A stretch of DNA of 24,305 nucleotides from a virus: IMG/VR virus record IMGVR_UViG_3300006793_000276, positions 1 through 24,305 of that record, one strand, 5' to 3'. The position numbers were made by a program, and so were the translations under genes. The stretch's first letter is position 1; every line of letters starts with the position of its first letter. This document shows, piece by piece, positions 5,002-23,380 of the stretch. The notes beneath the pieces were generated by a model, which did not search any database, was not told where the DNA came from, and was given only the letters and a program-made list of their open reading frames with translations.

Positions 5002-6746
5002 CAGACAAAGAACAGCAGTTAGCCAATTTAATCCGAATCGACCCCGAGGTCTGGTTCTCAACATTTGCCGTCATTAAGGATAAGAGGGGCAAAGATATTA
5101 AACCTAAAGCGAATACGCTACAAAAGCGTATGTTCGACCATTATAGAAAATGCCAAGTAGAAAAAAAGCCGTGCAAGATGATCATTCTAAAACCCCGTCA
5201 GAAGGGGGCGAGCACATGCGCTCAAGCTCTGACATACCACCACATGAGGAAGCACGAGAATCTGGCGGGCTCTCTGATGGGGGATATTGCGGGGACGAGC
5301 GACAAAGTCTTCGAGATCTATCGGAGATACGCCGAGAACGACGCCTTTCCGTGGGACGATACCGGAACAAATCTCGAGGATGGAGGCAATCTGGCAGACT
5401 TAATGAAACTAAGGTCCAAAAGTGCGTACGGAAAGGAAACCGCCGGATCGAAAAACGCAGGTCGAAGCGGAACTATCCAGGTCGGTAATATGACTGAGGT
5501 CGCTTTCTGGCCTAATACGGGACAAAAAGACCCCGCTCTTGGTTATCTACAGTCGCTGTACGACGGAGACAATGTTTCACTAGTTGTTGCCGACTCTACA
5601 CCGAATGGCCCAGCCGGTTGGTTTTATAACACATGGGTGCAGGACAATGAATGGGCTAAGATATTTGCCGCTTGGTGGGAGTTCGAAGATTCCGAAATAC
5701 CTTTCAAATCTGAAGTTGAACTTCAAGATTTCAAAGACACTATGACCGATGACGAGAAGTCAGAAGTCGAGCGTTTCGACGTAAACTGGGAGCAAATGCA
5801 TTGGAGAAGGAGAACTCTTCAGGACAAATGTAATGGCGATGTTTCTAAGTTCCGCCAGGAGTATCCATCGGATCCCGAAGAATGTTTCTTAATGTCGTCC
5901 CGCCCTCGTTTCCAGATTGAAGTACTAAAGGAAATGGCAGATGCGGCTCCTAAACAAGATAAAACCGTAGGTAGTCTAAGCTTACAGCCAAATAAGTCGG
6001 TATCTTATAATTTAGACAGGGCAGGGTCTTGGGTTGTTTACGAGCAACCTGAAGAAGATTCGAAGTATGTCATAGGCGTTGACACTTGTACTGGTGAAGA
6101 TCAGCAAATGCAAGGTTTAGCAGCCGACCCTGACTATCATAGCGTGCAAGTTTGGAAAGCTCCTTACGAAGATTGGCACGGAGACTGGCACGTAGCGAGG
6201 TTAGTTGCCCATCACCACTCTCGGGTAGAGATCGGAGTTCTCGCCGAGGAGATTGTCGCGGCAGCAACCTGGTACGGAAAGGCTTTCGTAGTCCCCGAAA
6301 TCAACAATAGTGGGTTAGCGATAATTAAATATCTACTAGAAGCGGGTTGCCATGTCTATCAACGAAGGAAAGTTAACAATTCAACAGGGATGGTCGAAAA
6401 GTTCTTTGGGTGGCAAACAGACAAAATAACAAGAAAAACATTAATCGACCATTTAGCTTCCGAAATCATGGATAGGAACATCGATATACCAGACGAAGGG
6501 GTGCTAAAGGAGTTAAAAACATTTATTATAAATGAAAAAGGAAAACCCGAAGCGGCACCAGGGCATCACGACGACCATGTCATGGCAACAGCGCTAGCCG
6601 TGTACAATATCGATTCCGCTACTACATTTAGAAAGCACAAGAAAAGAAAAATTACGAACAAGATGCTTAGGAAAAACCCAGGGCTTCTATGCCCAGACGG
6701 TTTTATGAGGGTTCCATTATCGGAATACAAGCGGTTGAGGAGGTAA
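4998..6746 (+). CDS. terL: Terminase large subunit (packaging ATPase and nuclease)
   Basis: 582 residues, usual for the family. ATG at 4998 has GGAGG at 4983-4987 and overlaps the upstream stop by 4 nt. The ATPase half has the phage-type Walker A LKPRQKGAST (64-73), Walker B ending NMTEVAFW with Glu167 as catalytic acid, and the coupling motif ADSTPNG (198-204). EYPSDPEECFL (288-298) is the typical linker signature. The RNase H-like nuclease half shows VIGVDTCTGED (Asp362), FVVPEINNSG (Glu434) and HHDDHVMATALAVYN (Asp525 or Asp526), so both domains look intact. It powers DNA translocation through the portal and cuts the concatemer. Codons from about 5190 to 5500 are distinctly GC-richer (about 55% in three sampled 60-base lines) than the end of the gene (32% in one line). 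Confidence 0.95.
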   Translation: MTDKEQQLANLIRIDPEVWFSTFAVIKDKRGKDIKPKANTLQKRMFDHYRKCQVEKKPCKMIILKPRQKGASTCAQALTYHHMRKHENLAGSLMGDIAGTSDKVFEIYRRYAENDAFPWDDTGTNLEDGGNLADLMKLRSKSAYGKETAGSKNAGRSGTIQVGNMTEVAFWPNTGQKDPALGYLQSLYDGDNVSLVVADSTPNGPAGWFYNTWVQDNEWAKIFAAWWEFEDSEIPFKSEVELQDFKDTMTDDEKSEVERFDVNWEQMHWRRRTLQDKCNGDVSKFRQEYPSDPEECFLMSSRPRFQIEVLKEMADAAPKQDKTVGSLSLQPNKSVSYNLDRAGSWVVYEQPEEDSKYVIGVDTCTGEDQQMQGLAADPDYHSVQVWKAPYEDWHGDWHVARLVAHHHSRVEIGVLAEEIVAAATWYGKAFVVPEINNSGLAIIKYLLEAGCHVYQRRKVNNSTGMVEKFFGWQTDKITRKTLIDHLASEIMDRNIDIPDEGVLKELKTFIINEKGKPEAAPGHHDDHVMATALAVYNIDSATTFRKHKKRKITNKMLRKNPGLLCPDGFMRVPLSEYKRLRR

Positions 6747-6769
6747 ACAACTAAAATTAAGGTAATCAA

Positions 6770-9592
6770 ATGGCAGATAAAGAAGCAAAAGTTGGCGACT
6801 GGGCTCTTAAGGTAATTGATGGCAAAGTTTATAAGTATAAAATAACAAGTGGTGGTGGGGGTGGGTTTGTACCGTCGCCAGAAGCTTTAGTAACTTCAAA
6901 GTGGTTAAGAGAAAATAGAGATAAAATTGCGTATTATAACCGCGATCTGGCTCAATACCCCGAAATAATGAAGTTGCATGTTGCCAGCGAGGCAAAAGAT
7001 TCCGGGATGACTGAATCGGTCGACGACGCTATAGAAGAAATTTACGTAGATACCCCTCTCGAAGAGGGTATGAATGAGCCTTTTGACCCGAATAAGGCGA
7101 CTATAGATAACCCAACCCCCGCACCCGAAAACAAACCCAAACCCGCACCCGCACCCGAAAACAAACCCGGCGTAAAACCCACCGAGGTCAAACCCAAACC
7201 CGTCACTATGGACCGACCTTCAAGACCCGGGCCTCAAGATGAAATTGATAAAATATCAAAAGGTGTCGGCAATCTTCCCATTAGTAAACCTCGTCAGGGT
7301 AACCCCGGCAGCTCCATACCCGATATGGCTGGAGCTAGAGATCGTGCCGCAATTGAACATTGGCGCGGTAAAAAACTTAAAGAAGCAATCGAAGACGACG
7401 AGCAGAGCAGAAGAAAAAATAAGATCATCGGTGCGTGGGCCGACGGAAAAGCTGGCTACGGCTGGTGGGACAACGCAACCGACGCAGAGAGAGCAAAAGC
7501 TTCTGCCGCTTTTACAAGAGATTCCCAAGCCGGGAAATACCACCCAAATAATGTCAAAAATGACCCGAACAACCCAACCTACCGGGCTCCCGCAGATATA
7601 GTTCAAGAAATTGACAGAGTAAACGGCGGGCCTTCGAAAAGAGCGGATGCCCAAGTTATCCGAGAACTTAAAAAGAATGTAGTCAAGGGTAATGATGTAG
7701 TTAAAACTGATGGGTTCGACCCAGTAGCTTTTAAAAATACCGACGAGTATAGAGAAATGCTTAAGCAGTATTCTTTAGAAAACCCAGGAGGCGAAACAGT
7801 GGAAGAAGGGACAATGGGCCCTTACGCCGATTTTAACAGACCCGCCGCCGCAAAAATTAGACAAGAGCGATTCGATCCTTCTAAGATGTCGGACGGTTTT
7901 GGCGCAGATAGAATAAAAAAAGAAGAAATGAAGCCATGGCTTCAGAATTTAGTAGACCCGCCAGCTCCCGAAACACCAAGCGGTCCTTACATCGGTGCGG
8001 AAAATACACCTAAAGGCCAGCCATTAGACAGAGAAACCGATTACGCCGACAGCATAGAGCAGTCACCTCCCCGTATTCAAGAACTCCCTCCCCAGGATCC
8101 CTTTGAAGAGCCCCCGCCCGGCAGTGGCTTTAACGGAGAAGGTATTACAGGCAGAACAGGCCCAGCCCGCGGCGGGTTAGTCGATGGCGAAGACACTTCT
8201 AACGATAAAGGCATGTACATCGACGGCGAAGACACTGCTAATGATGAGGGTTTTTACTACGACAAAGGCAGAACAGGCCCACCTGAGCAACCCGCTCCTT
8301 CAATGGAAGAGCCCGCTCCAGCTCCCGTAGATGAGGTTACCGAAAGGTATAAAACTAATGACCCCAATGCTTTTTCAGTAGAAGAAAGCCGCGGACCAGG
8401 TTCGGTGGCACCAACACCCGCTCCCGCACCCGCTCCCGCAGATGAGGTTACCGAAAGGTATGAAACTAACGACCCCAATGCTTTTTCAGTAGAAGAAAGC
8501 CGCGGACCGGGTTCAGTATCGCCAACACCAGAACCAAAACCCGAGCCTCAATCAGGCTCAGGTCAAAGTGGTAATTTCTCACTGGACACAATCGACCAAC
8601 TCCCAGTGCCACCGCCCGTATCTCCCACCGATCGCAAATACCCTGATGGTTTAGAGAACTCTCCCGTATTTAACCCCCCTAGTCCTCCAACTCGTCAGCA
8701 AGATTTAGAAACGGTTCAAAATATTACACACAGGGAGACTCCAAAAGAGCCCGCTCCAGCTCCGGCTCCGGCTCCGGCTCCAGCCCCAGCCCCGGCCCCG
8801 GCCCCGGCCCCGGCCCCTGCCTCTATGGAAGAGCCCGCTCCAGCTAGAGTTCCTTTTCAACCCGCACCGGTAGAGAGGTCTAGTAGTTCTGCTGCCAGCA
8901 ACGCTAGGCCTATGACTCAGGCCGAAATGTACTTTAATGCTATTAAAGAGAACGCGTTAGCAGCGGGAAGAACTATAGAAGACGCCCGCAGAGATTTTCA
9001 ATTAAAGTGGCAGCAAGCTTCCAAAATGCATCCCGCGGAAAGAGATAATCACGTTAATCAATATGTGTTATCTACATCCAAAAGGGCGACTCAACCTAAC
9101 CCTCTTAGTGGTAATAGAGCCGAAATAGACGCATATAACGAACAAGAAAGACTTTCGGGTATGGGTTGGAAGGATAGAATGCAAGCCCAAGGTTTAGGTG
9201 AAGAGGATATGATAAGAAACCGTGTTAACGACGACATACTAGAATCAACCAAGGGTGCTGGCCCTCGCTTTTTCAGTAACCCTCGGTACGGCAATGCGCT
9301 TAATGCTCAACACGCTTATCAAGATTGGCGTAAAGGTTTAAACCCAGGCCAAACCCAAACGCATGAAAAGTTTCTGTACCCCGAAGGAGTCCCATCTGTA
9401 GGCGATATAATGGGTGCCAAAAAACAAGAAATATTAAACAACGACATGCGCAACCCGGCCCCTCAATTCCCCGCCCCTCAAATGGGCCCCGGAGGTTCTC
9501 ACACTGATGTAGCCATGTCTCAACTAGATAAACTACCAAAAAGAGAGCAGGCCAGAAGATTAGGGCTCAACCACCTTACCAACTCATTCTAA
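6770..9592 (+). CDS. Large disordered Pro/Ala-rich repeat protein, unknown
   Basis: 940 residues from ATG 6770, with TAAGG 7 nt upstream. The first ~80 residues look folded (GDWALKVIDGKVYKYKI, then a five-glycine stretch), and the last ~220 (from MTQAEMYFNAIKENALAAGR) are helical and charged. Between them lies a long low-complexity region rich in Pro, Ala, Glu, Gly and Asp, with GEDT(S/A)ND repeats, a 37-residue duplication and an 11-unit Ala-Pro tract. No enzyme motif, signal peptide or membrane helix is visible. It lies 23 nt after the large terminase and 6 nt before the giant protein, so it is probably a virion or assembly protein working with one of them: a disordered linker, scaffold or ejected partner. 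The family is not recognised. Confidence 0.8.
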   Translation: MADKEAKVGDWALKVIDGKVYKYKITSGGGGGFVPSPEALVTSKWLRENRDKIAYYNRDLAQYPEIMKLHVASEAKDSGMTESVDDAIEEIYVDTPLEEGMNEPFDPNKATIDNPTPAPENKPKPAPAPENKPGVKPTEVKPKPVTMDRPSRPGPQDEIDKISKGVGNLPISKPRQGNPGSSIPDMAGARDRAAIEHWRGKKLKEAIEDDEQSRRKNKIIGAWADGKAGYGWWDNATDAERAKASAAFTRDSQAGKYHPNNVKNDPNNPTYRAPADIVQEIDRVNGGPSKRADAQVIRELKKNVVKGNDVVKTDGFDPVAFKNTDEYREMLKQYSLENPGGETVEEGTMGPYADFNRPAAAKIRQERFDPSKMSDGFGADRIKKEEMKPWLQNLVDPPAPETPSGPYIGAENTPKGQPLDRETDYADSIEQSPPRIQELPPQDPFEEPPPGSGFNGEGITGRTGPARGGLVDGEDTSNDKGMYIDGEDTANDEGFYYDKGRTGPPEQPAPSMEEPAPAPVDEVTERYKTNDPNAFSVEESRGPGSVAPTPAPAPAPADEVTERYETNDPNAFSVEESRGPGSVSPTPEPKPEPQSGSGQSGNFSLDTIDQLPVPPPVSPTDRKYPDGLENSPVFNPPSPPTRQQDLETVQNITHRETPKEPAPAPAPAPAPAPAPAPAPAPAPASMEEPAPARVPFQPAPVERSSSSAASNARPMTQAEMYFNAIKENALAAGRTIEDARRDFQLKWQQASKMHPAERDNHVNQYVLSTSKRATQPNPLSGNRAEIDAYNEQERLSGMGWKDRMQAQGLGEEDMIRNRVNDDILESTKGAGPRFFSNPRYGNALNAQHAYQDWRKGLNPGQTQTHEKFLYPEGVPSVGDIMGAKKQEILNNDMRNPAPQFPAPQMGPGGSHTDVAMSQLDKLPKREQARRLGLNHLTNSF
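8183..8260 (+). repeat. 39-bp in-frame tandem repeat (GEDT unit)
   Basis: Two adjacent 13-residue units, DGEDTSNDKGMYI and DGEDTANDEGFYY, are encoded at 8183-8221 and 8222-8260. Synonymous and nonsynonymous differences have accumulated, so the duplication is not recent. The units are acidic and tyrosine-bearing. A related GRTGP motif flanks the block on both sides (near 8150 and 8270), so the duplicated segment may once have been longer. Confidence 0.7.
8330..8551 (+). repeat. 111-bp in-frame tandem duplication
   Basis: Two adjacent 37-residue copies start at Asp521 (8330-8440) and Asp558 (8441-8551) of the 940-residue protein. Both begin DEVTERY(K/E)TNDPNAFSV and continue EESRGPGSV, differing mainly in their proline-rich ends (Ala-Pro versus Glu/Lys-Pro). 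The DNA is nearly identical over the first ~80 bases, so the copies are recent or kept alike by recombination. The length is a multiple of three and preserves the frame. Confidence 0.85.
8753..8818 (+). repeat. Hexanucleotide Ala-Pro codon repeat, 11 units
   Basis: Eleven consecutive Ala-Pro codon pairs. The first five use GCT CCA/CCG and the last six use GCC CCA/CCG/CCT, so two homogenised sub-blocks sit side by side: the mark of replication slippage or unequal recombination rather than coding selection alone. Copy changes would lengthen or shorten the linker without breaking the frame. The tract is followed by SMEEPAPA, which also occurs upstream near 8300. Confidence 0.85.
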
Positions 9593-9598
9593 ATTAAT

Positions 9599-12500
9599 AT
9601 GGGTCTTCTCGATGATTTAGATCTTGGAAGAGAGGCGTATTCAAAAAAACGTCCTCTCAAACTAGAGGGGTTCGAAAGGCCAGTACCAAAACCGGAACCA
9701 ACCCAACGACCCGCCAATTGGACCCCCGAGTTGGCTATGGAAGAAGTAAGATCAAAAAGATCAACTTCAGGCCAAACTCCCGCGTGGGACCCACCCGCGG
9801 AAGAGCCTTCTTTACAGGAAACCGACCCTAACCTTGCTCAGGCTTATAAGGATATTAATACTTTTAAAAAAGATATATCCGCGTTATCAAGCGACGTAAG
9901 TAATTATAAAGAAATAGCGGGCACTAAGACAAACGCTCTTAATGATTTTTATGAAAACACCGTCGCTCCTTTTTGGCAGGAACAGTTTAGCGAAGGATTC
10001 CTAGAAACTCCCGAACTAGACCTAAAGAAACCCGAATCTATTGACGGGTTTTTTAAAGACATAGACTCCCGGTATGACGGTTTTCAAAAAAGAGTAGACG
10101 AAGGGGATACTTCTTGGTTTGGAGAAGACGAGCAATTAGGTCGCGCTTCTCGTATGCTGAAAGGTAAAAGAAAATACGACCTTATTAAGCAAAAGCACGC
10201 AAGAATGCTTAAGGACTACCATCAGTCCCAAAATGCTTTTAATAGTGCGGAAGCCCGTAAAAAAGCAATGAAGGAAGCTCTTATGAGTCTCCCCGAAAAT
10301 GCAAGAAGGGCGGCAGGTACTTGGAAAGAAGAAAACCCGGATAAAACTCTTACCCCGTCCCAGATAAACTCTTTGCTTGATAAACAGAAATTTGAAAAGC
10401 CTCAGTACAGTCTTACCGGCGATTTAATAAACCCCGACAAAGTTGACCCCAGGTTAAATCTTGATGAAGGCGATTACTACTCCAAAAAAGATCAGGATAG
10501 GCAGGGCAAAAGATTAGGTGCGGTAGAAAAGTACGGACTAAGTGGGCTTCAAAAAGATCTAAAAGAATTAGATACCGCCACTAAGCTTAAAAAACACGGA
10601 ATGATGTATTCCGTTTTAGGTGAGATTGCTAATCGTTCTATTTACATAAGTGCTGCTGAAAAGGAAGCAATTAACTTAGACCGAATTAAAAAAGCCGGGT
10701 TTGGTTCTTATAAAGGAACCGATATTAACGAAGCTATTGAAAATCTCGGCGGAGAAGATCGTATAATTGCGGCTTCTTTAGTCGAAAATGTTGGAAAGGC
10801 TCATGTCGCTTTAGAAAGGGCAAAAGTATTTCACGCCGCAAATGTAAAACAAAAAGGAGCAGAAGAAGCAAAACGAGAAATAGAGCTAGCCGAAAAGAAC
10901 TTTAGTGCCGCTTTTAACGCAGCAATACAGGGTGGATTTGGGGAGGAAATAGAAAAAAGAGGGAGGTCAAATAGTTGGTACGGCAATTTGTATAACGCCT
11001 ACCGAGCTGGTGATTTACTCGAAGACGCAAGTGATTTTACTTTAAAACTTGCCGGGTATAGTGAGTTTACTCAAACCGACGCCAAAAAATTAATAGACAT
11101 CATGACCGAGATGCAGAATCTCGAGACATCTGAAACCTATAAATCGTATAAGCAATCTTCTTCCGATAATTTACTAGACGCGTTTGGTAATATATTTAAG
11201 CACGGTCTTGCAATACCCGAAATGGTTACTGAAACTTTGACCGGTTTCTTTAACACATATTTTACAGAAGCTCCACGAACTCTAGCGATTACAACGGGAA
11301 CGGGGGCTTTGGCAGGTACCGTAATAACCCCGGGAGCTGGTACTTTAGCAGGAGCTGGAACGGGGGCCGCTTGGGGTTTAAGACTAAATGCCGGTGTTTC
11401 TTCATTTGTAATGGAGTATGTCGGGGAGTTTCTTTCCGAAATGGAAAAAGCTGGCGTCGATTGGCACAACCCTAACGTGTTTATGGCGGCTTTCAACAAC
11501 CCCACATTAATGGCGGAAGTTAGAGAGAAGGCTACTAAAAAAGCGGGAGGTGTTGCTTTTTTTGATATTATTGCCGCCGGTATAGCGGGTAAAACGATGA
11601 GGTTAGTAAAAAACCCATCGTCGTTGAAAAAACTACCAAATGGAGTAAAAGCATTTAGGCAAGAGTTAGACGCCGGAATCCAAGTCAGCTCAGCACGCCA
11701 ATCACTCGCCATGGGTGCAGAGCTCGCCGTACAAGGTGGCTTAGGTGGTACAGGTGAAGCGGTTGGTCAACTTCTTACTTTAGACCCAGGCGAAGAAATA
11801 GACTGGGATGCAATTGCGGCCGAAATGGGTATCGAAGCTCTCGGGCCGGGAGGTTGGGGTTTTGCAACAAACTATGCCCTTTCTAAATTCAGAGGGGGTT
11901 ACGCACTCGAAGATCTCACGGGTACAGAAGCTAATATTTTAAACAAAGAACAAACCGCCGACGGGTATGTAGAGCAAGTAGACCAGGCGGGTTTTCGTTA
12001 CGAAAGGAGGAGGTTTAATACAGCTCAAGATTATCTTAATTATGTAGTCGAACAGACTGGTATGGATCTTAATTCTCCTACCGGTTTCCTCGTAAGCAAA
12101 CTTGTAGGGTTTGCCCAGGCTTCAGGTAAAATTGGAAACCTCGGAGTTGTGGTTGCAGATAGGACTCCTTTCTCCGGTTCAACTACCCGTGGTGCTTATA
12201 ACAACGGTACAATATTTCTTAACAAAAAAGCCTTAGCCGGCAGGGAAGATAGTACTCCTTTCGTACTTCTTCACGAAGGTGGTCACTATATCCAAGATAT
12301 GTTCTTCACACCCGAAATGGTGTCGGACATGTACGGCAAGTATCACGGAGACGACGACGCAAAGAAACTATCATGGGCTCAGTACAAGCTAGGTAGGCAA
12401 GTACTTAGCCTCGAAGATCTTTCAACTAGTGAGCTTAATACCGTAAACAGTACCTTTGACACTACTTCAGATTTAGTTAAGCACGCCGAGTGGTTCACCT

Positions 12501-15500
12501 CCCAAGTAGGAGCAGCTCTTGCAATTGAGAGTGGTTTAGCCGGAGGTACAAAGGTAGACTCAAATGTCAAAAAAGCCGTTAGGGCTATGATGAAGTACAT
12601 CACTGGTGACGAAAGCGTTGAGCAGTTTTTCCCACCCTCACCCGAGTCTGATGCTGACGGAGCCGTTAGATTAGCGCTACTTGCGCAACTCGGTTTTGAT
12701 CCAAATACTTTACAAAATAACAGAGCCGCATTTGTCGCTGAAGATGGGTCACAGGCCGCTGGTACGACGGTGAATCCGTTTGAAGTGAACTTAGCTAATA
12801 TGGCTAATTGGGATCAGAATACTAGAGATGTGTGGGCTAGGATTTTGGGTTACAAAAACTGGAAGAGTTTACCTAATAAATTTAAAAGAGGTGGGGCGGT
12901 TAGGAGAGATAAAACTCTTGCCGGTGGTGGTGACCCTACAGCAACCGTCGACCTTTCTGATCCCGAAGTTCAACAAAAACTTTATAAAGGATCTAACATC
13001 TCTAAACCCGTAGCTACCGAGACTCAAGAAGGCGGAGGCAACCTAAAGAAAGTAACAACGCTATCTCCCGAGAAAAGTAAGACCGGAGGTAAAGTTGGAG
13101 CGGCGGCAAGAACCGCGTTGTCCAAAGGAGCGGCGGAAACTGATGTCGAAGAACTGGGCAGTAAAACTATAAAAACTAGCGCCGGTGAGCCGCTCAACAT
13201 AATTAAAAAAGCCGGAGATGGCGGTCCAATTGATTTAAAAGGAGTACCTAAAGAAAGAAGCCGAGTAGAGAGCAGAATAAAAGAGATCAAAGACACCATT
13301 GCGGAACTCAAAACTCCTAATAAGGTTTGGGATTCTAGTGAAAAAACCGGTCCTAGATGGGTAGAACAGCCCCGTTTTGAAACCGCCGAAGACCAGAAAA
13401 AGGCAATAGCTCCTCTTGAAAACGAGCTAAAAGGATTAGAAGCTAGATCTAAAAATATCAAAGAAGTACCCGTTTCAAAAGGAGGTAAGCCAATCCCCGA
13501 AGGACTTGGAACTGGGCCTAAGGACGAGTTCTCAATAGCAAAGCAAAAGGTAGATAACATAATCGAAAAAGCCGGCGAAGCCACTAAGCCTAAGCCTGCT
13601 AAAGTAGAAGTCGTTAAACCTAAACCCGTTCCTACTAAGAACAAGTCGGGTAAGCCTAACATCGCGAGAGACCCCATCGCTAAAAAGGATAATCTCGATG
13701 AAGTTAAACCTACCGTAAGTAAGCAAGAAAAAGAAGCGGACAAACCTAAGGAAGTAGCTAAATCAAAAGTTACTCCTAAAAAACTTTTTGAAGACCCTAA
13801 GCCGATAAAGGAGTCTACTTTAAAAAAGCTAGAAGCAAAAAGTGAGAAAAGAAAAGAACAGGCTGTCGAAAGTAAAAAAGACAGAGATGCACCTGATTCA
13901 GTAAAAGATGTTCAAGATAGCATTTCCGAACTTTCTAGGCTTAATAATAAGGAGATGGCGGGCAGGATTTCCAAAGCGAAAAAAAGTATAATAAAAAGAA
14001 AAACGGAGCAAATCCAGTCTCTTACAAAAGATGATCTCATGAATATGAAGATCAATGGGAAGAGCCGTAAACTTTCCGAAGTTAAACGAAGTTTGTTAAA
14101 AAAAGTATCAGTAGACCCATTAGACATACTAAGGGAGCTGTTGTTTCCAGGACTAGACCCGGATTCTAATATATTCGAAGCTTTAGGTTTCTCCGAATTT
14201 GAAGATATTTTCGATGGTCTGGAAGCGAAAACATTGACCCCCGATCAAATAAAGAAATTAAATTCTAAAATAGAAAATTATTTCGATAACAATTTACCCG
14301 AGCTATCTGAACAAGCACCAGTTGTAGAAGGAGTTTTAGTCCCTTACGGAGTTCACGATGTTAGTATACCTGGTGCTGCCGCATTAAATGGAAAGACTGA
14401 GAAGAGTGTTCAAATTTCATTTACGAATAACTTAGGTGAAGAAGGCGACATTATTAATGTAAAAGGTAAGCGTCAAAAAGAAGGAGGTATTTGGTATGGC
14501 GATAAAGAATTTACCCCCGTTAAAGGAAGATATGGATGGGAGATCTTAGGAAAGAAAGAACTTCTTAAAGACGGGAAAGTATACGCTTATAAATATTCTT
14601 TAAAGGCAGTCACCGAAGACCAAGCTCGTCGCGATTTACCCTGGCACGAAGTACCAGCGTCAGCTATCCCAGGGAGACTTAACGATTTTAGTGTAGCGGA
14701 CAATAGGGGAGGTAAGGTTTCCCGAGAAAATTTCAGAGATCCATTGTCTCCAATTACCCGTCAATATTTATCAATAGGTCAAGCTCTTCGCGGGAAATCA
14801 AAGACAGCTTTAACCGCAATGTCCGGCGACTGGAACAACAAAGCCAAAGAAGGTATACCCGCTAGGAATGCTTATCGTTTATTCCGAGCTATGTCTAAGG
14901 GTGATGTTGATTACGGCCTACTTGAGACATTGTACGGAAAGGACACTGATACTTCTAAAGTTAGCTACGATGATGCAAGAATGATTGGTACGATGGTGCT
15001 TGGGGCGTTGGCTCCGGCAAGGACTACTTCCAAGAGAAGAGTCGCATCGATGCAGAAGAATTTAAAATCAAACTTCGACCCAGTTGAAGAAAAATTAGAA
15101 AAAGAAAACAAAGCGAGCGGGGGTAGGGCGGAGTCGTACGAGCAAACAACTTTTAAGATAGATGAAGAAGGTAATACTATTAACTTTCTTCGCGGACTTT
15201 ACAGCAGAATACGAGCTGATGAAAAAAGTAGGCAAAAATCAAAAGACGATTTAAGAGCGGCGGACCTTGTCTTGATCGACCTTATGAATGCAGAAGATCA
15301 GTTCGGCATGACTAAAGATCAAATCAGGACGGAGCTTACTACCTTGTTCACCGATCCGAACAATGAATTCTTCGGCTTGGTCGATGTTTTCCGTGCTGGC
15401 ATCGATGTTCAATCCGGAGACGCAACTAAAGTAGCAAAACGCTTTGAAGATGGCCGGCCGGTTATTACACCAACCGAAGACCAAGCAAAAGCTCTTGATA

Positions 15501-18500
15501 AAGATTTTGCGGAAATAGAAGGCCTCGGTAAGTCTATGTCCCCCGATGTAGTAGGGACTGAAAACGAAGGCGGAAGTGGTAAATCTACAATTTCATCTAA
15601 ATCCGTCCGTAAAGAAAAATTCACACCGGATGAGTTTACCGTGGAAGATTCAGACTTGGCCACCCCCAAACCCGAAGAAGGGACTTGGCAGGATTTATTC
15701 ATTAATGGGATTGGCATGGAGGCTAGTTATGATTGGGTTAAACTAATAGCGGAAAAACTTAAAGAGCGCGGTTTAATTCCGAAAGATACCGTTATAGTAA
15801 GCCACCCCGAAATCCGTGAACTTGACGCCTCTCTGTCCAGAGTCGAAGCAGACCAACGCCATGCAAACAGGACTATTCTTACTCCAAGAGTCCTCGCTAA
15901 TATTATAGAAAAAAACGGTATTGATAATTTAATATCTTTACCTGATACCAATAAACAGGGCAGGGTAACCGAAGGCGGCCCGGGTTCTGGGATGTTATTT
16001 TATTCCTCGATACTATCAAAAATGGTTAGCGAGTACGGGAAGATTACTAAGGGTAAAAAAGGTGTTGTTGACGCGGGTATAACCCCAGCCGAGCTTTATA
16101 AAAGAGCCATTGAACTATTCGGAGAGTATAGAGATGGCGGCGCAAGATGGGCCAAGAAACATGACAATGGTTTTGAAGTTTCCTCTAAAGCACCGACTAA
16201 GTTAGGTAAGTCTTTTAGTGCTTTTAACGCAAAGCTTTCAGACGGAAAGTCTATTGAGCACCATTACCAAGTAAATGTAAAAGGCCACGCGAGTATTAAA
16301 GAAGGCAAGGGTAAGCCACCAAAAGACACTAGTATAGACAGTTTTGCCGAGTACAAAAAACTTTGGGAGCAATACGCCGAAGAAAACCCGAAGAAAATAG
16401 AAGCGTTAAGAAAAGCCGCCGAAGGTAAGGTTTTGACGGACATGTTTGCTACAACTGATGTTAATCAAGCAAGAGCGTTGGTCGATATCATAAAACCATC
16501 AAGAGAGCTTACAGATAAAGAGTGGTTTAAATTTGTAGAGCTGTTTGGCGGTCCCGAAGATACGACGATTGATAAAGATTCGAGATATACACAACAAAAA
16601 AGAAACGCCGAAAAACAATTCGCCTTTGCTTATTTTGCTCAGTTTATAAGAAAACGCGTTGCCGAAATGGGGGGTATGGAAGAGAAATTCGGCGATAAGA
16701 TTGCAACCGAAGGGGCTAGTGAAAATGTTGTTGAGAGTAAGCCCGGTGTAGAAGATCTAGACAGCCCCGAATCAAGAAGTGTAGAAGACTTAGGCCCCGC
16801 TGCCGAAGTTGAAAATGTGTCAACCGAAGAAGCGGATGGGGAGTTCATGAGTCAAATTGAGTCTAATGAATTAGCCGATGCAATGATGGATCCTCTCACT
16901 AAAGGGAGCACAAAAAAGAATTGGAAAAAAGCCGGAGTAATTTCAAACTTAGGGCCTCTCTATAAAAATATTCGGAAGTATTTAGATATGTCCGATGCTG
17001 ACATGGCTAAAGATAAGAATTTAGCCAGCTTGCTCAAAAAAGATAAATTCCAATCGGGCTTGCTTAAAAACAAATTTCACAAAGGCACCTTTACCCCTAA
17101 ACAGGTGAGGGACATGGCAAAATCAATACTTAGCCCAGACCAAGTTAATAACGCGGAGTCTGACGGCGAGGCGGCTGCAAAGCTCCAAGCTTTAATTGAT
17201 AGTCGAAAAGAGGGAGTCGAAGACAAGGCCAAGAGTGCAAAGGAAAATAAAGCAAAGCGTGAAAAAGCTAAGGCTCAAGAAAAGAATGAAGCCCTCGACC
17301 CTAAGTACGGCGACGACAGATCAATAACCCTCGGATCCGAGATCACACTCGTTTCAGAAATGCCCGCTTTACTTTCCGAAAGGATGGCAGCTTCTTTCTT
17401 AGCATCCGCAAAAGGTGGGTTTAATTTACTACCTGAGGAGATGCGTTATAAGATTCGCGTTACTATATTTAACCAACACGCTACTCTAGAAGATATAGCG
17501 GTTAAATTACAAAAAGATTTAAACCTTAAGTACGGGACTGAAGCGAGAGACTTCTTCGATATGATGGGGGTCGTCCTACCCACCTACGCAAAGGTAAAGA
17601 TTGCATCAAGAGAATTTAATTCAAGATTCCGTGAGCCAATAGTAGAAGCACTTAAAAAGTACGGCGTTACTGACAGAGTATTCGGTAAGTACGTGCAAGC
17701 ATTAGCAGCCGGTACTTTTAATAGGCACGTAAGAGGACTTCTTATGGAAGCCCAGAGTGATGTGATGTCGAGTATAGCCGATAGGCAGAAGAAAATAAAC
17801 GATCACGAAAGTTCTTTAGGCGCTGAATCGATTACCGATACTACAAAAAAAGAGCTTAAGGAAAGTATTAGTAAATATAAATCCGAAATTAAGCAGCTTG
17901 AAAAAGATTTCGAATCATACAGCTTCACAAACTATCATAATAAAGATGGGGAATTTGCACCTTCTGGTTTCTCAGACAGAGAAGCAGCTTTATTAGTTGA
18001 GAGTTCCAAAAAAGACCCTCAAATGATGAAGCTTCTTAAAGACAAAAATGACATCATGGGTCTGTGGGCTAAGATGAATGCTACAACTATAAAGGTAGCT
18101 CTCGAAACCGGTCAGATAAAACAAGACGAAGCGTTTAAACTAATTACCGCAAAGAGCCGAGCTAACTCAGCCGAAGGTTTGGTTGATGTCGTTTTCAACG
18201 CTCTTGGGTTAGATAAGAAGGACGATCAGTACAAAGAAAACGCTAAAATAATAAGAAAGACTTTTAACTCAGAAAGTTTTAAATATCAGCGAAACGAGGA
18301 AAAGGGGAGCATGCCCGAAGGCTACCATTACTCACCTATGCAAGGGTTTGAGGACAATGAATTCCATTACGAAGAACAGGAATCATTGGAACAACTGGTA
18401 ACCGGTAAAAGTGGCGGTAGCTCTGGTTGGCAGTCTAAAAGAAACAACGATGTTGGTAAAAGGGTCATGGGTCGCCGGACGGGGGTAGATAAACCTAATC

Positions 18501-20836
18501 CCGAATCCGCACTAGCCCACGCTTTTCTTGCTCACGATGCAATGGTTATGAGAGGAGCTAAGATTGCACCCGGTCAAAGAATCCGCGAGTGGTATGAGCT
18601 TTTCCTCGAGATGCATAAAAACAAAGACAACCTCGGAGAGAAAATCGAGTGGTCTGAGCGTTTTAGCGAGGTTGCTAAAAACAACGGCATTGAAGGTTTA
18701 ATGAACGATAAAAGAAAAAGACAGATTGTCTTTAACGAGTTCAATGAATTTTTCGATGTATTAGAGGAACACGAAGACGGTAAGATGCCGACTCAGACCG
18801 GCTTAAAACTAAAGACAAAAGTAGTTAACGGCAAAGAGCGTATCGTTATAAGGAAAGGCGAAATACCTATTAACATAGCAAATGACCCATCCTTGTTCTT
18901 GGTTAAAAACGGAGGTGAACTTCAGTTCGTTAAATTTAAACTAAAAGATGGTAAAAAAGGAGACGGTAAGACTCTTACATCAAGAGGAGCCCGCCTCACC
19001 TCTGAGTTAAGTAATTTAAATTACCAGCCCAGCAATCCTTTGTTCAGAGCCATTCAGATACCTACCAGGTTCTTGGCACAGATGTATACTTCGTTTAACC
19101 CGGATTTCCTTTTATCAAATGCCGTTAAGGATGCGATAACCGGTATGATAAATGTTACCGAGGATGAAAAGAAAACAATATTTAAAGATTTAATAAATCC
19201 CAAAAACTACGGAAGAGCGGTAAAAGCTATTTACAAAGTAGAGCGGGAAATGGAGCAAGGACCAAGGTCAGCGAAGTATAAAAACATGCCCTTAGAGGAG
19301 GCTCTTAAAATTGGAGATAATGACTGGGAGGGTTGGTTCAGGTTCTTCGAAGCTAATGGTATGCGTACCGCGTTTACTAGCCAAGATGAAGTTACGCAGT
19401 ACATGGAAGCCGTAAAAGAAGACATAGGAATACTTTCCAAAAGAGGTAAGTTCTCTAAGGCCAAAATGAAGCTTCTCGAAAGCAATATAGTAAAAACTGT
19501 TGAGGCGATGAATGCGGGTGTTGAAAATGCCATGCGTTTACTAGTTGCAAAACATTTACTTAAAAAAGGTTTTACCGTTCAGCAAGCGGTCATGGCGGGT
19601 AGAAATATATCTGTGGACTTTAACAGAAAAGGAACTCTCAGTTCCGGAATCGGTTCGTTATTCCTATTCTTCAACGCAGGCGTTCAGGGTAATCTCCGAA
19701 TGATTAAATCAATGGTGGGCCGGGATAGGGTGGCGGCCGCTAAGTTAATTACCGGGATAATGGCTTTCTCTTTTACTTGGGGCTTGCTTCAAAGAATGTT
19801 GACCCAACACGATGAAGATGAAGACGGGGAGAACGAAGGCAACCACTACGACAGATTAGGCGACTTCGAAAGAGATACTAATTTAACAATGTTCTTCCCC
19901 GGTACTGATTACAATGTCCGCATCCCTCTTCCTTGGGGTTATAATTTATTTTGGATGATGGGCCAAAAAGCGGCTAATGTAGCGGCTCAAAGCATGGGCT
20001 CTTCTATGGGTGGGTCGGGTATTATTTCGAACGGCACAAACGCCATGTCAAATATCTACTCCACATTTAACCCACTTGGTGGAACTTTAATGCCCGGGTT
20101 TATTGCTCCTCTTTATCAAGTCGCTCAAAATGAAACTTTTTACGGAGCCCCGATTACGAAACCCAATCGTCAATTTGAAGAAACCCCAGCCGCTTTTAGA
20201 AGTAGTAAAAATACAAAAGAATTTTTTGTAGATTTTTCTAAGAAAATGAATGGGTGGCTCGGTGGAGATGAAATTACTCCGGGGTCTATGAAAAGGATGT
20301 TCGGGTCTGACGAGGTTGTAAACCCAATGGAAGATTGGAGCTGGGCGTTGTCAGGTAGTGATCTTGAACATATATTTGAAGGGTACACGGGTGGGCCAGG
20401 TGCAACTTTTTCAAGATTAGTATCAGGAGCGTACAGCGGTATTAACGGGAACCTAGACATGAATTGGGCAGAAGTACCCGTTTCCCGAAGGTTTTTTAGA
20501 GAAGGTTACTCGTCATACATGACTTCTAAAAGGTTTTACAATTTAAAGAAAAGAACCGACAACGCTAACGAGTATGTTAAAAATCTTAAATCCGGTAAAA
20601 ACATCAAAGAATCAAAAGAAGCTATATCTGGTAATAGGGATTTATTACAAATAAAACCTATGGTAGACGCCGCCGATACAAAAAGAAAAGCAATTCAGAG
20701 ACTTGTAGATAAAGTTAATGCATCTCAGTTGTCAGAATCGCAAAAGCTTGATAAGGTAGAGAAATTAGAAAAGCAACGGGTGGCTGCTTGGCTTAAAGTA
20801 TTGTACAAAGCAAGGAAGATGGGAATTGACGTATAA
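9599..20836 (+). CDS. Giant phage polyvalent protein: zincin plus LPD38 module
   Basis: 3,745 residues, nearly half the window, starting 6 nt after the previous stop; no ribosome site is obvious. In order: helical N-terminus (1-520); a glycine/alanine-rich, membrane-like stretch (about 561-620, GTGALAGTVITPGAGTLAGA); a second small-residue region (700-750); a zincin with HEGGH (His892, Glu893, His896) and possible third ligand Glu964; a Lys/Glu linker (about 1150-1470); several unassigned domains, including one at about 2185-2300; and a C-terminal part (about 2900-3620) that I recognise as the LPD38-containing module of phage polyvalent proteins. Such proteins are thought to be packaged in the head and injected with DNA. 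It could form an ejection conduit, cleave host proteins, or both. N4-type virion RNA polymerase motifs were looked for and not found. No internal stop or frameshift is seen. Confidence 0.85.
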   Translation: MGLLDDLDLGREAYSKKRPLKLEGFERPVPKPEPTQRPANWTPELAMEEVRSKRSTSGQTPAWDPPAEEPSLQETDPNLAQAYKDINTFKKDISALSSDVSNYKEIAGTKTNALNDFYENTVAPFWQEQFSEGFLETPELDLKKPESIDGFFKDIDSRYDGFQKRVDEGDTSWFGEDEQLGRASRMLKGKRKYDLIKQKHARMLKDYHQSQNAFNSAEARKKAMKEALMSLPENARRAAGTWKEENPDKTLTPSQINSLLDKQKFEKPQYSLTGDLINPDKVDPRLNLDEGDYYSKKDQDRQGKRLGAVEKYGLSGLQKDLKELDTATKLKKHGMMYSVLGEIANRSIYISAAEKEAINLDRIKKAGFGSYKGTDINEAIENLGGEDRIIAASLVENVGKAHVALERAKVFHAANVKQKGAEEAKREIELAEKNFSAAFNAAIQGGFGEEIEKRGRSNSWYGNLYNAYRAGDLLEDASDFTLKLAGYSEFTQTDAKKLIDIMTEMQNLETSETYKSYKQSSSDNLLDAFGNIFKHGLAIPEMVTETLTGFFNTYFTEAPRTLAITTGTGALAGTVITPGAGTLAGAGTGAAWGLRLNAGVSSFVMEYVGEFLSEMEKAGVDWHNPNVFMAAFNNPTLMAEVREKATKKAGGVAFFDIIAAGIAGKTMRLVKNPSSLKKLPNGVKAFRQELDAGIQVSSARQSLAMGAELAVQGGLGGTGEAVGQLLTLDPGEEIDWDAIAAEMGIEALGPGGWGFATNYALSKFRGGYALEDLTGTEANILNKEQTADGYVEQVDQAGFRYERRRFNTAQDYLNYVVEQTGMDLNSPTGFLVSKLVGFAQASGKIGNLGVVVADRTPFSGSTTRGAYNNGTIFLNKKALAGREDSTPFVLLHEGGHYIQDMFFTPEMVSDMYGKYHGDDDAKKLSWAQYKLGRQVLSLEDLSTSELNTVNSTFDTTSDLVKHAEWFTSQVGAALAIESGLAGGTKVDSNVKKAVRAMMKYITGDESVEQFFPPSPESDADGAVRLALLAQLGFDPNTLQNNRAAFVAEDGSQAAGTTVNPFEVNLANMANWDQNTRDVWARILGYKNWKSLPNKFKRGGAVRRDKTLAGGGDPTATVDLSDPEVQQKLYKGSNISKPVATETQEGGGNLKKVTTLSPEKSKTGGKVGAAARTALSKGAAETDVEELGSKTIKTSAGEPLNIIKKAGDGGPIDLKGVPKERSRVESRIKEIKDTIAELKTPNKVWDSSEKTGPRWVEQPRFETAEDQKKAIAPLENELKGLEARSKNIKEVPVSKGGKPIPEGLGTGPKDEFSIAKQKVDNIIEKAGEATKPKPAKVEVVKPKPVPTKNKSGKPNIARDPIAKKDNLDEVKPTVSKQEKEADKPKEVAKSKVTPKKLFEDPKPIKESTLKKLEAKSEKRKEQAVESKKDRDAPDSVKDVQDSISELSRLNNKEMAGRISKAKKSIIKRKTEQIQSLTKDDLMNMKINGKSRKLSEVKRSLLKKVSVDPLDILRELLFPGLDPDSNIFEALGFSEFEDIFDGLEAKTLTPDQIKKLNSKIENYFDNNLPELSEQAPVVEGVLVPYGVHDVSIPGAAALNGKTEKSVQISFTNNLGEEGDIINVKGKRQKEGGIWYGDKEFTPVKGRYGWEILGKKELLKDGKVYAYKYSLKAVTEDQARRDLPWHEVPASAIPGRLNDFSVADNRGGKVSRENFRDPLSPITRQYLSIGQALRGKSKTALTAMSGDWNNKAKEGIPARNAYRLFRAMSKGDVDYGLLETLYGKDTDTSKVSYDDARMIGTMVLGALAPARTTSKRRVASMQKNLKSNFDPVEEKLEKENKASGGRAESYEQTTFKIDEEGNTINFLRGLYSRIRADEKSRQKSKDDLRAADLVLIDLMNAEDQFGMTKDQIRTELTTLFTDPNNEFFGLVDVFRAGIDVQSGDATKVAKRFEDGRPVITPTEDQAKALDKDFAEIEGLGKSMSPDVVGTENEGGSGKSTISSKSVRKEKFTPDEFTVEDSDLATPKPEEGTWQDLFINGIGMEASYDWVKLIAEKLKERGLIPKDTVIVSHPEIRELDASLSRVEADQRHANRTILTPRVLANIIEKNGIDNLISLPDTNKQGRVTEGGPGSGMLFYSSILSKMVSEYGKITKGKKGVVDAGITPAELYKRAIELFGEYRDGGARWAKKHDNGFEVSSKAPTKLGKSFSAFNAKLSDGKSIEHHYQVNVKGHASIKEGKGKPPKDTSIDSFAEYKKLWEQYAEENPKKIEALRKAAEGKVLTDMFATTDVNQARALVDIIKPSRELTDKEWFKFVELFGGPEDTTIDKDSRYTQQKRNAEKQFAFAYFAQFIRKRVAEMGGMEEKFGDKIATEGASENVVESKPGVEDLDSPESRSVEDLGPAAEVENVSTEEADGEFMSQIESNELADAMMDPLTKGSTKKNWKKAGVISNLGPLYKNIRKYLDMSDADMAKDKNLASLLKKDKFQSGLLKNKFHKGTFTPKQVRDMAKSILSPDQVNNAESDGEAAAKLQALIDSRKEGVEDKAKSAKENKAKREKAKAQEKNEALDPKYGDDRSITLGSEITLVSEMPALLSERMAASFLASAKGGFNLLPEEMRYKIRVTIFNQHATLEDIAVKLQKDLNLKYGTEARDFFDMMGVVLPTYAKVKIASREFNSRFREPIVEALKKYGVTDRVFGKYVQALAAGTFNRHVRGLLMEAQSDVMSSIADRQKKINDHESSLGAESITDTTKKELKESISKYKSEIKQLEKDFESYSFTNYHNKDGEFAPSGFSDREAALLVESSKKDPQMMKLLKDKNDIMGLWAKMNATTIKVALETGQIKQDEAFKLITAKSRANSAEGLVDVVFNALGLDKKDDQYKENAKIIRKTFNSESFKYQRNEEKGSMPEGYHYSPMQGFEDNEFHYEEQESLEQLVTGKSGGSSGWQSKRNNDVGKRVMGRRTGVDKPNPESALAHAFLAHDAMVMRGAKIAPGQRIREWYELFLEMHKNKDNLGEKIEWSERFSEVAKNNGIEGLMNDKRKRQIVFNEFNEFFDVLEEHEDGKMPTQTGLKLKTKVVNGKERIVIRKGEIPINIANDPSLFLVKNGGELQFVKFKLKDGKKGDGKTLTSRGARLTSELSNLNYQPSNPLFRAIQIPTRFLAQMYTSFNPDFLLSNAVKDAITGMINVTEDEKKTIFKDLINPKNYGRAVKAIYKVEREMEQGPRSAKYKNMPLEEALKIGDNDWEGWFRFFEANGMRTAFTSQDEVTQYMEAVKEDIGILSKRGKFSKAKMKLLESNIVKTVEAMNAGVENAMRLLVAKHLLKKGFTVQQAVMAGRNISVDFNRKGTLSSGIGSLFLFFNAGVQGNLRMIKSMVGRDRVAAAKLITGIMAFSFTWGLLQRMLTQHDEDEDGENEGNHYDRLGDFERDTNLTMFFPGTDYNVRIPLPWGYNLFWMMGQKAANVAAQSMGSSMGGSGIISNGTNAMSNIYSTFNPLGGTLMPGFIAPLYQVAQNETFYGAPITKPNRQFEETPAAFRSSKNTKEFFVDFSKKMNGWLGGDEITPGSMKRMFGSDEVVNPMEDWSWALSGSDLEHIFEGYTGGPGATFSRLVSGAYSGINGNLDMNWAEVPVSRRFFREGYSSYMTSKRFYNLKKRTDNANEYVKNLKSGKNIKESKEAISGNRDLLQIKPMVDAADTKRKAIQRLVDKVNASQLSESQKLDKVEKLEKQRVAAWLKVLYKARKMGIDV
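12053..12500 (+). other. Zincin-like metallopeptidase domain in the giant protein
   Basis: Covers residues of about 819-967. FVLLHEGGHYIQDMF supplies HExxH at 892-896, with the codons for the first His at 12272-12274. Before it lie beta-type strands, IGNLGVVVADRTPF and GAYNNGTIFLNKKAL, like the edge strand that positions substrate in other zincins. KHAEWFTSQVG (Glu964 at 12488-12490) is the kind of downstream helix that gives the third zinc ligand in gluzincins. The order strand, HExxH helix, EW(F) helix recurs in phage polyvalent proteins. Activity and substrate are unknown; it may act on host proteins or on the giant protein itself. Confidence 0.65.
19022..20420 (+). other. LPD38-type module of the giant protein
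   Basis: Residues about 3142-3608. Landmarks I associate with LPD38: FNPDFLLSNAVKDAITGMI (transition from the preceding helical part), VDFNRKGTLSSGIGSLFLFF with NAGVQGNLRMIKSMV, a hydrophobic helix AAAKLITGIMAFSFTWGLLQ (about 3379-3400), an acidic cluster DEDEDGEN, a beta-rich NVRIPLPWGYNLF, then FNPLGG, the NETFYGAPI segment and GYTGGPG (3596 onward). Upstream, GYHYSPMQGFEDNE near residue 2908 and GRRTG near 2960 match what usually precedes the module. The module marks injected phage proteins; its own biochemical role is, to my knowledge, unproven. Confidence 0.75.
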
Positions 20837-20847: not shown

Positions 20848-22887
20848 GTGAAGAATACAAATTTAGTACTAAGTCGTGAACAGGAAGAAAAACTCGTGGA
20901 GTACGCACTTGAGCGAGTTGAAAGCTTAAAAGAAGACAACTCCGCGCGTATAAGTAGTGACTTACACTCTTGGTCTGTTTATCAAAATGACCGCAAGGAT
21001 AGGGACGCTATTGACAGTATCTTCGCTCAATCAAATGTCTCCGTTCCTTTAACTAGTTTAGTCGTAGACCATTTTTTAGCTAGAGCTGAAGATGAGATAA
21101 CAGGGACAAGTCCTTATTTCGAATTTAAACCACAAGGTGTTTCCGATACGGTTTCCGCCGAATCTTTTAATAGGTACTTCCATTGGAAATTGGAAGACAA
21201 AGGTAGGATCCGAGAAAGATTAGAAGAAAGTTTTCTTCATATATTCTTACAAAGAGCAGCTATTTTTAAGTCCGTTTACGAAGAGCGTAAATCTGTATGG
21301 TACGATTTAGAAAGAAGCGCTCTGTTTGATAATGAGACTCAAGAGTTTGTAGAACTTCTTGAGCAAGGGCCTGTTATAGAAGGAGACGCACCAATGTTTC
21401 CCGAGGTTAACCCAGAAACCGGCGAAACCGAGACACGACTCGAAGCAGACCCTTCGTTCACCGTAACTCCTGGAAAGCACGAATTTAAACCATACCCCGA
21501 AGGTGTGCCGACCGAGCAAATTAAGTACAAAGGTCCTAGGTCGGTGGTCGTTGATTCGGACAGGTTCTTGGCCCCAAGTTCAGTAGAGCACCTAGAGTAT
21601 GCCGACTTCATTGGCGAGCTTTACGATAAAGATTTAAATTGGTGCCGCGATATATTTTTTGAGCGTGAGTGGTTTTCTTTTTCCGACTACGAAGAGGCTG
21701 TAAAGAAGGACTCTAACCCTAGAACAAAAAGTAAAAAGAACGAAGATTCTAAGGACAGTAAAACTTGGGAAAAAGAAAAGATTCCTATGGTTCCCGTAGT
21801 TGAATGTTGGATTTCAAAAGATATACTAGGAACGGGGCAGCCTCAAGATTTCTGCGTATTTATAGATACTGAAATTAAAAAAGCTATTTTTTACGAGTAC
21901 ACAGCTAAGCTCACCCCCGACAATAAACCACCTTATGTAACCGTAGCGATCGGTAAGATGAATAATAAATGGTGGGGTCCGAGTCTTCCTGAAAAAATAA
22001 GAACATACCAAGAGTACATCGATAAACAGTTTAATAGCGAAAGCTATCGTAACGAGTTGTCCGCTAATCCTATTATAGGTGTAAACCCTCAGGCAGTAGA
22101 AGACGAACCCGAAGATGTCGAGCTCCACGCGGGTAAGTTATTTCAACTTAAAGACCAATACAGCATGGACGATTTTCTTTCGTTCTCGGCTTTACCTAAT
22201 TTAGATAACAAGACCCAGGAGTTAATCGATTTTGTATTCGGCATGGTTCAACTTTGGCTTGGGGTTAGTAATATGGCACAAGGAGATTACCAAGCTTTAT
22301 CGCCCGCTAATACTGCAACGGGAGTTGAGGCAACTTTAAACGAAGCTTCTAAAATAGGGCGAAGGTGGATGCGTAGAATCGTAAGAGGGTTTGAAGAGCA
22401 CCTTGCAAAATTAATAAAAGTTGCAATGGCAACTATGGACGAAGCTGAGGTCTACGAATACATGGAAGGGGATGTGGCCGCTTTTGCGGAGATGACTCCC
22501 GAGATGATTTCGGATCTTGAGATGAATTGTAAGGTCATCCTTTCACAGGACCAAGGACAGCGGGCTATCGAAAAAGCCAACCTTGCTCTTCAGGTTCAGG
22601 AAAGATTTTTACAGCATCCACCCGAAATTCGACCATTCAGCCGCCCAATGTTTAAGCGCATTTTAGACGCCCTTGGTTACGAAAATACCGAAGAACTTTT
22701 ACCAGAAGCCGCACCACCTGACCCTAAAAGCGAAGCTGAGATTATGAAACTCATGGCGGATGCACAGGGCACAGGAGGAGGAGCTGGGCAAGCCCCAGAA
22801 GCGGGTGATCAAATCAACGCACAAGTCCAGGGGATGGGTAACAGCAACCCTCAAGGCGAAAATCAATATCAACAACAGACAGGATAA
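20848..22887 (+). CDS. Portal protein
   Basis: 679 residues, in the range of P22-like portals. The only workable start is GTG 20848, 11 nt after the giant gene's stop, since the next in-frame Met codon lies far inside the protein; no Shine-Dalgarno site precedes it. PLTSLVVDHFLARAEDEITG near residues 72-91 is the conserved early wing helix; KWWGPSLPEKIRTYQEYIDK and the following FNSESYRNELSANPIIGVNP match the stem and clip region, and SPANTATGVEATLNEASKIG with RRWMRRIVRGFEEHL form the long crown-side helices. The C-terminal 60 residues are Gly/Gln/Asn-rich and disordered. The portal dodecamer forms the vertex through which the terminase pumps DNA. Lying after the giant protein instead of directly after the large terminase is unusual. 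Confidence 0.9.
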   Translation: MKNTNLVLSREQEEKLVEYALERVESLKEDNSARISSDLHSWSVYQNDRKDRDAIDSIFAQSNVSVPLTSLVVDHFLARAEDEITGTSPYFEFKPQGVSDTVSAESFNRYFHWKLEDKGRIRERLEESFLHIFLQRAAIFKSVYEERKSVWYDLERSALFDNETQEFVELLEQGPVIEGDAPMFPEVNPETGETETRLEADPSFTVTPGKHEFKPYPEGVPTEQIKYKGPRSVVVDSDRFLAPSSVEHLEYADFIGELYDKDLNWCRDIFFEREWFSFSDYEEAVKKDSNPRTKSKKNEDSKDSKTWEKEKIPMVPVVECWISKDILGTGQPQDFCVFIDTEIKKAIFYEYTAKLTPDNKPPYVTVAIGKMNNKWWGPSLPEKIRTYQEYIDKQFNSESYRNELSANPIIGVNPQAVEDEPEDVELHAGKLFQLKDQYSMDDFLSFSALPNLDNKTQELIDFVFGMVQLWLGVSNMAQGDYQALSPANTATGVEATLNEASKIGRRWMRRIVRGFEEHLAKLIKVAMATMDEAEVYEYMEGDVAAFAEMTPEMISDLEMNCKVILSQDQGQRAIEKANLALQVQERFLQHPPEIRPFSRPMFKRILDALGYENTEELLPEAAPPDPKSEAEIMKLMADAQGTGGGAGQAPEAGDQINAQVQGMGNSNPQGENQYQQQTG

Positions 22888-23099: not shown

Positions 23100-23380
23100 T
23101 GAGCGATATTGTTCTATTCGACAAGCTTTCCGATGTCAAAAGGCTCACTGTTGACGAGGCTTTTACGCATTTGGAGAAAAGGTTTCAAACAGAAAGAGGC
23201 CGTTATCTCTCCAGAATGCTTGACCGCGAAACAAGTCCCGAGGAGACAATTGCTCTCAAGGCCGTCGTTAACGCGTTGGAGACTTTATCGCCGATGGCTC
23301 TCGCGGAAGCAGTCATCAAAATAGAATCGAAGAATCTTAAGAAGCATAGTCCCGAAATGTTTAAGGTTAAAAAGGCATGA
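23099..23380 (+). CDS. Small helical protein between portal and LamG gene
   Basis: 93 residues, mostly helical: LTVDEAFTHLEKRFQTERGR, RETSPEETIALKAVVNALET and PMALAEAVIKIESKNLKKHS form three amphipathic helices, followed by a basic tail. No enzymatic motif is visible. One-base overlap upstream and four-base overlap downstream indicate coupled translation. Short helical proteins next to portal genes can be head-tail connectors or scaffold parts, but no family is recognised here. Confidence 0.7.
   Translation: MSDIVLFDKLSDVKRLTVDEAFTHLEKRFQTERGRYLSRMLDRETSPEETIALKAVVNALETLSPMALAEAVIKIESKNLKKHSPEMFKVKKA

Follow-up and report, generated by a model that had tools for sequence, protein, structure and literature searches.

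A giant phage protein with conserved ends, a variable middle and a mobile cassette of predicted NADAR fold

What is a phage protein of 3,745 residues built to do? The question is raised by a 24,305-base IMG/VR record of a bacterial virus, probably marine, analyzed over its whole length (the window), in which a single giant ORF lies immediately upstream of the portal gene (Table 1). As the original prediction of a single gene had supposed, the frame is uninterrupted, and a related ORF was found in 24 of 24 related records. These homologs, together with a closest full-length relative of ~58–63% identity across both ends, mark the giant ORF as a gene rather than a chance frame. The reading that we favor, with a probability of about 0.6, is that the giant is a polyvalent chassis, incorporated in the virion and delivered together with the DNA, whose ends carry a zincin and an LPD38 domain and whose swapped cargo includes a NADAR domain.

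The 940-residue product of the neighboring upstream gene is Pro/Ala-rich and of low complexity. Its counterparts at the same place in relatives are 396–1,192 residues long, and in the two nearest relatives it is conserved only in parts, mainly at the C-terminal end. It was considered as a detached fragment of the giant and rejected, having no similarity to it. Closer to the start of the window, positions 3572–4207 contain a possible sulfotransferase-like gene (phrog_3347, E=3e-5; Pfam Sulfotransfer_2 at only E=0.04).

Table 1. Features of the giant ORF and of its surroundings in the window
Feature	Residues of giant	Window position	Strand	Remarks
Large terminase subunit gene		4998..6746	+	phrog_24361 E=2e-17, phrog_2 E=1e-14
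Gene of 940-residue Pro/Ala-rich protein		6770..9592	+	between terminase gene and giant; neighbor, not part of giant
Giant ORF, 3,745 residues		9599..20836	+	ATG start; no internal stop
Conserved N-module	about 1–1050	9599..12748	+	alignable in all homologs, 21–61% identity
Uncharged Ala/Gly-rich stretch	561–594	11279..11380	+	inside long predicted helices; earlier "membrane-like" segment
Zincin-like metallopeptidase domain	about 774–980	11918..12538	+	AlphaFold model and VIA
HEGGH active-site motif	892–896	12272..12286	+	H, E and H invariant in 37/37
Presumed third zinc ligand (E-W-F/L)	E964	12488..12490	+	E in 36/37, D in 1/37
Variable middle ("cargo bay")	about 1051–2600	12749..17398	+	without similarity to most homologs
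Mobile NADAR-like cassette	2182–2304	16142..16510	+	predicted fold and mobility
Candidate catalytic residues	E2220, K2228, D2281	16256..16441	+	invariant in 75/75 aligned sequences
Conserved C-module	about 2601–3745	17399..20833	+	alignable in all homologs
LPD38 domain	3415–3628	19841..20482	+	PF18857 E=1e-23
Portal protein gene		20848..22887	+	phrog_1216 E=1e-24
Gene resembling phage virion structural proteins		23377–24234		downstream of portal gene

Conserved ends around a variable middle

Eighty related loci were recovered by a portal search. The giant ORF was immediately upstream of the portal gene in each of the related IMG/VR loci examined (22/22), and 20 of these 22 giants were complete. 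Nineteen of the complete giants were single ORFs of 3,313–5,845 residues and one was split in two. The split giant (L120, reverse complement, 5349–18270) consists of a 2,491-residue ORF with the N-module and an HEAIH motif, and a 1,815-residue ORF with the C-module. The second ORF starts at a TTG just past the stop of the first and in a different frame, either through a natural split or through a sequencing frameshift.

The N-terminal 1,000 residues of the window giant found matches in all 24 of the related virus records searched and in none of 50,697 phage records. Both end modules could be aligned throughout the homologs, and between residues ~1000 and ~2640 most homologs gave no match. Set by fixed offsets, the length of the middle in relatives ranged from 1,194 to 3,726 residues. 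Closer subgroups of giants have middle segments in common at 25–50% identity. The middle is therefore a patchwork rather than wholly unrelated sequence, and the reading that giant middles have nothing in common was discarded as too strong. The giant reads best as a chassis of conserved ends around a cargo bay in which domains are exchanged.

The original prediction left more than 1,500 residues unassigned, and correctly so: searches of Pfam, NCBIfam and PADLOC found no domain above cut-off in the middle of the window giant. Comparison of 13 giant middles with Pfam likewise yielded no family reaching its cut-off. Sub-threshold matches were seen in the middles of L112 (near residues 2330–2370 of the giant) and L117, to SprT-like (E 3e-4, near HETWH) and CBM_5_12 carbohydrate-binding (E 3e-4) families.

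A cassette of predicted NADAR fold in the variable middle

Within the variable middle, the cassette at residues 2182–2304 follows a distribution of its own. It is 74.8% identical to its counterpart in the L111 giant and 68.3% identical to that in the L214 giant, at 23–27% identity between the backbones of those giants and that of the window. L108 and L109, the nearest relatives, lack it, and the alignment continues across the insertion point. Only three giants of the window's lineage were seen with the cassette. PHROG 9995 matches residues 2184–2299 of the giant, and a search with the cassette alone returned 80 virus loci and 9 bacterial loci. It occurs as many free-standing genes of about 125–170 residues, mostly in the very large genomes of jumbo phages, and also within many unrelated giant ORFs. 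In phiKZ the domain adjoins the DNA polymerase gene, and cyanobacteria and Variovorax carry further copies in proteins encoded on plasmids. Cassette-bearing proteins outside the window's giant lineage lacked both the N- and the C-module, and most had only the cassette itself in common with the window giant. By these sequence comparisons, the cassette has been exchanged horizontally between phages.

A further segment, residues 2270–2423 of the L111 giant, is 53% identical to residues 2132–2290 of the L214 giant, with N-modules that are 25% identical, and is a candidate for another exchanged cassette. In the unrelated giant of L198 (ORF 835–6312), the NADAR cassette is followed by SLOG-like and helicase-like segments and by HEYAH, as read by eye. 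Sub-threshold matches to GNAT acetyltransferase and SAP families were seen beside the cassette in the unrelated giants L213 (residues 1176–1233) and L216 (residues 1192–1216).

The AlphaFold model of the cassette, built from 75 aligned sequences, reached a pLDDT of 90.2 and a pTM of 0.83. Its best Foldseek match in the PDB was the Geobacter lovleyi NADAR 8bat (probability 1.00, E 7.8e-3), with the next matches at E >2. VIA aligned 8bat at Z 9.1 over 119 residues and 8bau at Z 6.8, both of them NADARs, and no other of 66 chains reached Z≥2. In the viral library BFVD, NADAR-annotated proteins came among the weaker matches, after close relatives. Matches of the cassette to RIO kinase and staphylocoagulase were short and weak, found no support in the predicted fold, and were rejected. 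The Pfam family PF22397 (NADAR-DarT1) matched the cassette sequence at E 0.0015, with 18.5 bits against a cut-off of 27. It was matched by only 5 of the 75 cassette members at E≤0.1, and the unrelated DUF488-N3i was also matched by 5 of the 75, with a better best E. Since the gathering score was not reached, the cassette is filed as NADAR-like by fold and not as a PF22397 member. It has the NADAR fold in a single predicted model. The earlier suggestion that the middle may hold effector domains thus finds a predicted, effector-like example in this cassette.

NADARs reverse guanine ADP-ribosylation and serve as antitoxins of DarT1 (PMC11543638, PMC11125620). The candidate catalytic residues of the cassette resemble, in order and spacing, the E/K/D set that matters in the E. 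coli C7 NADAR (PMC11543638), with 8 residues from E to K in the cassette versus 7 in C7. In vitro activity of a phage NADAR need not translate into protection of cells from DarT1 (PMC11125620). For viral NADAR and related domains, virion packaging has been suggested, mostly as proteins that stand alone (PMC9503650). DarT1-type NADARs were searched for in the cassette-carrying genomes and none was found. Phage-encoded NADAR-like enzymes that neutralize DarTG1 have reportedly been described.

The substrate of such an enzyme could be DNA or a soluble compound. The closest solved structure and the sole NADAR sequence match both belong to the DarT1-associated, DNA-acting subfamily, and the proposed catalytic residue is an Asp, as in that subfamily (PMC11543638). 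These points speak against action on a soluble substrate, whether riboflavin intermediates as for YbiA or ADP-ribose-based immune signals. A soluble substrate is still a real, if lesser, possibility: YbiA has the same fold, soluble ADP-ribose derivatives have been argued to be the main substrates of phage and other viral NADARs (PMC9503650), and the by-eye reading of the L198 giant places a SLOG-like segment after the cassette.

The conserved ends

The LPD38 end that had been proposed for the giant was confirmed: with 84.8 bits PF18857 exceeded its gathering score of 27, and profile positions 2–188 of 189 were covered. A profile of the C-module matched a ~2,790-residue Stx podophage protein (phi296 XYY30081.1; E 1.4e-99 over the main stretch), a ~3,060-residue protein of Vibrio phage 252E42.2 (E about 1e-100), BcepIL02 gp70 and JC1 gp69 (E 1.7e-64 for the last). 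Fifty shuffled controls gave no match. For JC1 gp69, 51 unique peptides were recovered from virions purified on CsCl (PMC9144972). This C-module homolog provides the strongest evidence for a virion location of the window giant, which is probably built in as well; it is a relative that has only the C-module in common with the window giant and lacks both the N-module and the cassette. The head storage originally proposed is consistent with this homology.

The zincin-like domain lies in the N-module. An HExxH motif would be expected about 0.03 times in the giant from composition. The zincin alignment comprised 37 sequences, most of them about 20–27% identical to the window giant, and in it the motif and the later Glu were conserved (Table 1). 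An AlphaFold model of residues 470–1090 (621 residues) had an overall pLDDT of 66.5, with about 75–90 in the zincin part. The model runs from strands to the HExxH helix (H414–433) and on to a later helix with E964 (H489–508), which is the order described for the zincins of polyvalent proteins (PMC5512222). The best VIA chains over residues ~780–1000 were anthrax lethal factor (Z 6.8 and 6.3), IrrE (4.7) and selecase (4.5), all below 8, and VIA also aligned the window zincin with residues 2124–2357 of N4 gp50 (Z 4.6). Foldseek of the 621-residue model gave no significant match. Given Z scores below 8 and this Foldseek result, we weigh the conserved residues as strong evidence and consider the fold likely. 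The zincin claim of the original prediction is supported by these residues and by the zincin-like order of secondary structure. ABC-transporter-like VIA rows over the N-module helices look like generic helix packing and were set aside. Comparison of the zincin with the N4 C1 domain by profile was suggestive only (E 0.0097, probability 4%). Overall, the assignment of residues ~774–980 as a zincin is well supported, and its peptidase activity is predicted.

Such a peptidase might cut a host protein after injection, with the remainder of the giant serving as its delivery vehicle. The catalytic residues are retained in every homolog, the nearest solved folds include IrrE and lethal factor, the latter with host proteins as its targets, and Iyer et al. 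allow such a role for some polyvalent zincins (PMC5512222). However, the zincin sits in the constant chassis and not in the variable cargo, so a housekeeping role such as self-processing fits better than a fast-changing host target, and the same work favors processing of the polyvalent protein itself. We therefore regard a host effector as unlikely.

The Ala/Gly-rich stretch ahead of the zincin had been described as membrane-like. It is indeed an uncharged Ala/Gly-rich run, but its transmembrane hydrophobicity was not borne out: the best 19-residue Kyte-Doolittle mean of the region was 1.42, against a usual transmembrane cut-off of about 1.6. Glycine-zipper patterns showed no excess over shuffles. 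Since the run falls short of a classical transmembrane segment, the idea of membrane crossing is weak. The phage giant ORFs of L179–L188 (up to 2,424 residues in the stretch covered) have only residues ~486–760 of the window giant in common with it, and in them the helical segment preceding the zincin occurs without the peptidase. PDB sequence searches with profiles of the N-module, the C-module and the cassette returned nothing meaningful.

A mainly structural ejection protein, as in an N4/T7-like ejectosome with channel-lining helices, a filler middle and a relic zincin, would suit the mostly long helices of the N-module model, the presence of residues ~486–756 without a zincin in other phage giants, and the precedent of N4 gp50, an ejected protein of ~3,500 residues with an HExxH domain and a large helical C-terminal part (PMC12633501), but is improbable: both the HExxH and the Glu, which a relic should have lost, are retained; the middle holds a transferable, sharp-bounded domain that is also a free-standing gene; and homology of the C-module to the gp50 C-terminal domain was rejected at the sequence level, with no similarity detectable by profile comparison (probability 0.5%).

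Proposed role and known systems

For the preferred reading, that of a polyvalent chassis built into the virion, the following course can be proposed. The conserved ends would package the chassis into the virion of a tailed phage, and the giant would enter the cell together with the phage DNA, with its NADAR cargo present ahead of any phage gene expression. There, the NADAR may take ADP-ribose off guanines of the phage DNA or off a soluble ADP-ribose signal, and this would counter a DarT-type (perhaps DarTG-type) defense. The zincin would most likely cut the giant itself, before packaging or after entry, freeing pieces. We infer the virion location, the injection, the enzyme activities and the targets of the giant alike. 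A wider proposal, held tentatively and at somewhat less than even odds, is that the whole lineage injects such a chassis with a counter-defense slot, in which the NADAR, as a virion-delivered ADP-ribosyl hydrolase, would protect the incoming genome and the other middles would form an effector reservoir.

If this holds, the unassigned middles, at 1,200–3,700 residues per phage, would constitute a large reservoir of unrecognized effectors. The constant-variable-constant layout would offer a simple route to new effectors, and the middles are almost without Pfam matches. The phage counter-defenses against ADP-ribosylation in the literature consulted, such as AdfB of ICP1 (PMC11481870), are made after infection starts; a NADAR within a virion-type giant would be ready as soon as infection begins. 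The cassette is a compact unit of 125 residues and is also found as a gene on its own, which makes its activity directly testable.

Among known systems, the giant resembles polyvalent proteins (PMC5512222) in its very large size, its several unrelated domains, its zincin-like peptidase, its phage-specific LPD-series domain and its location among packaging and head genes. Its unrelated enzymatic domains, both predicted, are the zincin, from motif and conservation, and the NADAR, from fold. In contrast to polyvalent proteins, it has no familiar Pfam effector domain, its N-module is absent from the 50,697 phage records searched, and its cargo is a NADAR domain, which PMC5512222 does not mention.

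The DarB-like giants of Bcep22-like phages, BcepIL02 gp70 and JC1 gp69, have a homologous C-module with LPD38. They lack the N-module and cassette of the window giant and instead carry a lytic-transglycosylase-like part and a methylase/helicase part (PMC9144972). No Pfam family of the lytic-transglycosylase-like part or of the methylase-helicase dyad was found in the window giant (at E≤1 for the dyad). The C-module is likewise homologous in the Stx podophage giant and that of Vibrio phage 252E42.2, but in these the N-module and cassette were not detected and the gene lies elsewhere in the genome.

The virion RNA polymerase of N4, gp50, is comparable as a virion protein of about 3,500 residues with an HExxH zincin-like domain. 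In gp50 the zincin follows the polymerase, whereas that of the window giant is in the N-terminal half, and the C-terminal parts of the two proteins have no detectable homology. A tblastn search with three pieces spanning the giant gave no vRNAP match; 401 records of the collection match the C-terminal region of the N4 vRNAP.

With NADARs, including the DarT1-associated antitoxin 8BAT, YbiA and phage NADARs, the cassette has its predicted fold in common, as well as the comparable order of its invariant E, K and D. It is shorter, at about 125 residues, falls below the Pfam cut-off and is embedded in giant virion-type proteins. No DarT toxin partner was seen in the window. Taken together, the giant is best described as a polyvalent protein whose N-module is specific to its lineage, whose C-module, with LPD38, is known from podophages, and whose NADAR-bearing middle is exchangeable.
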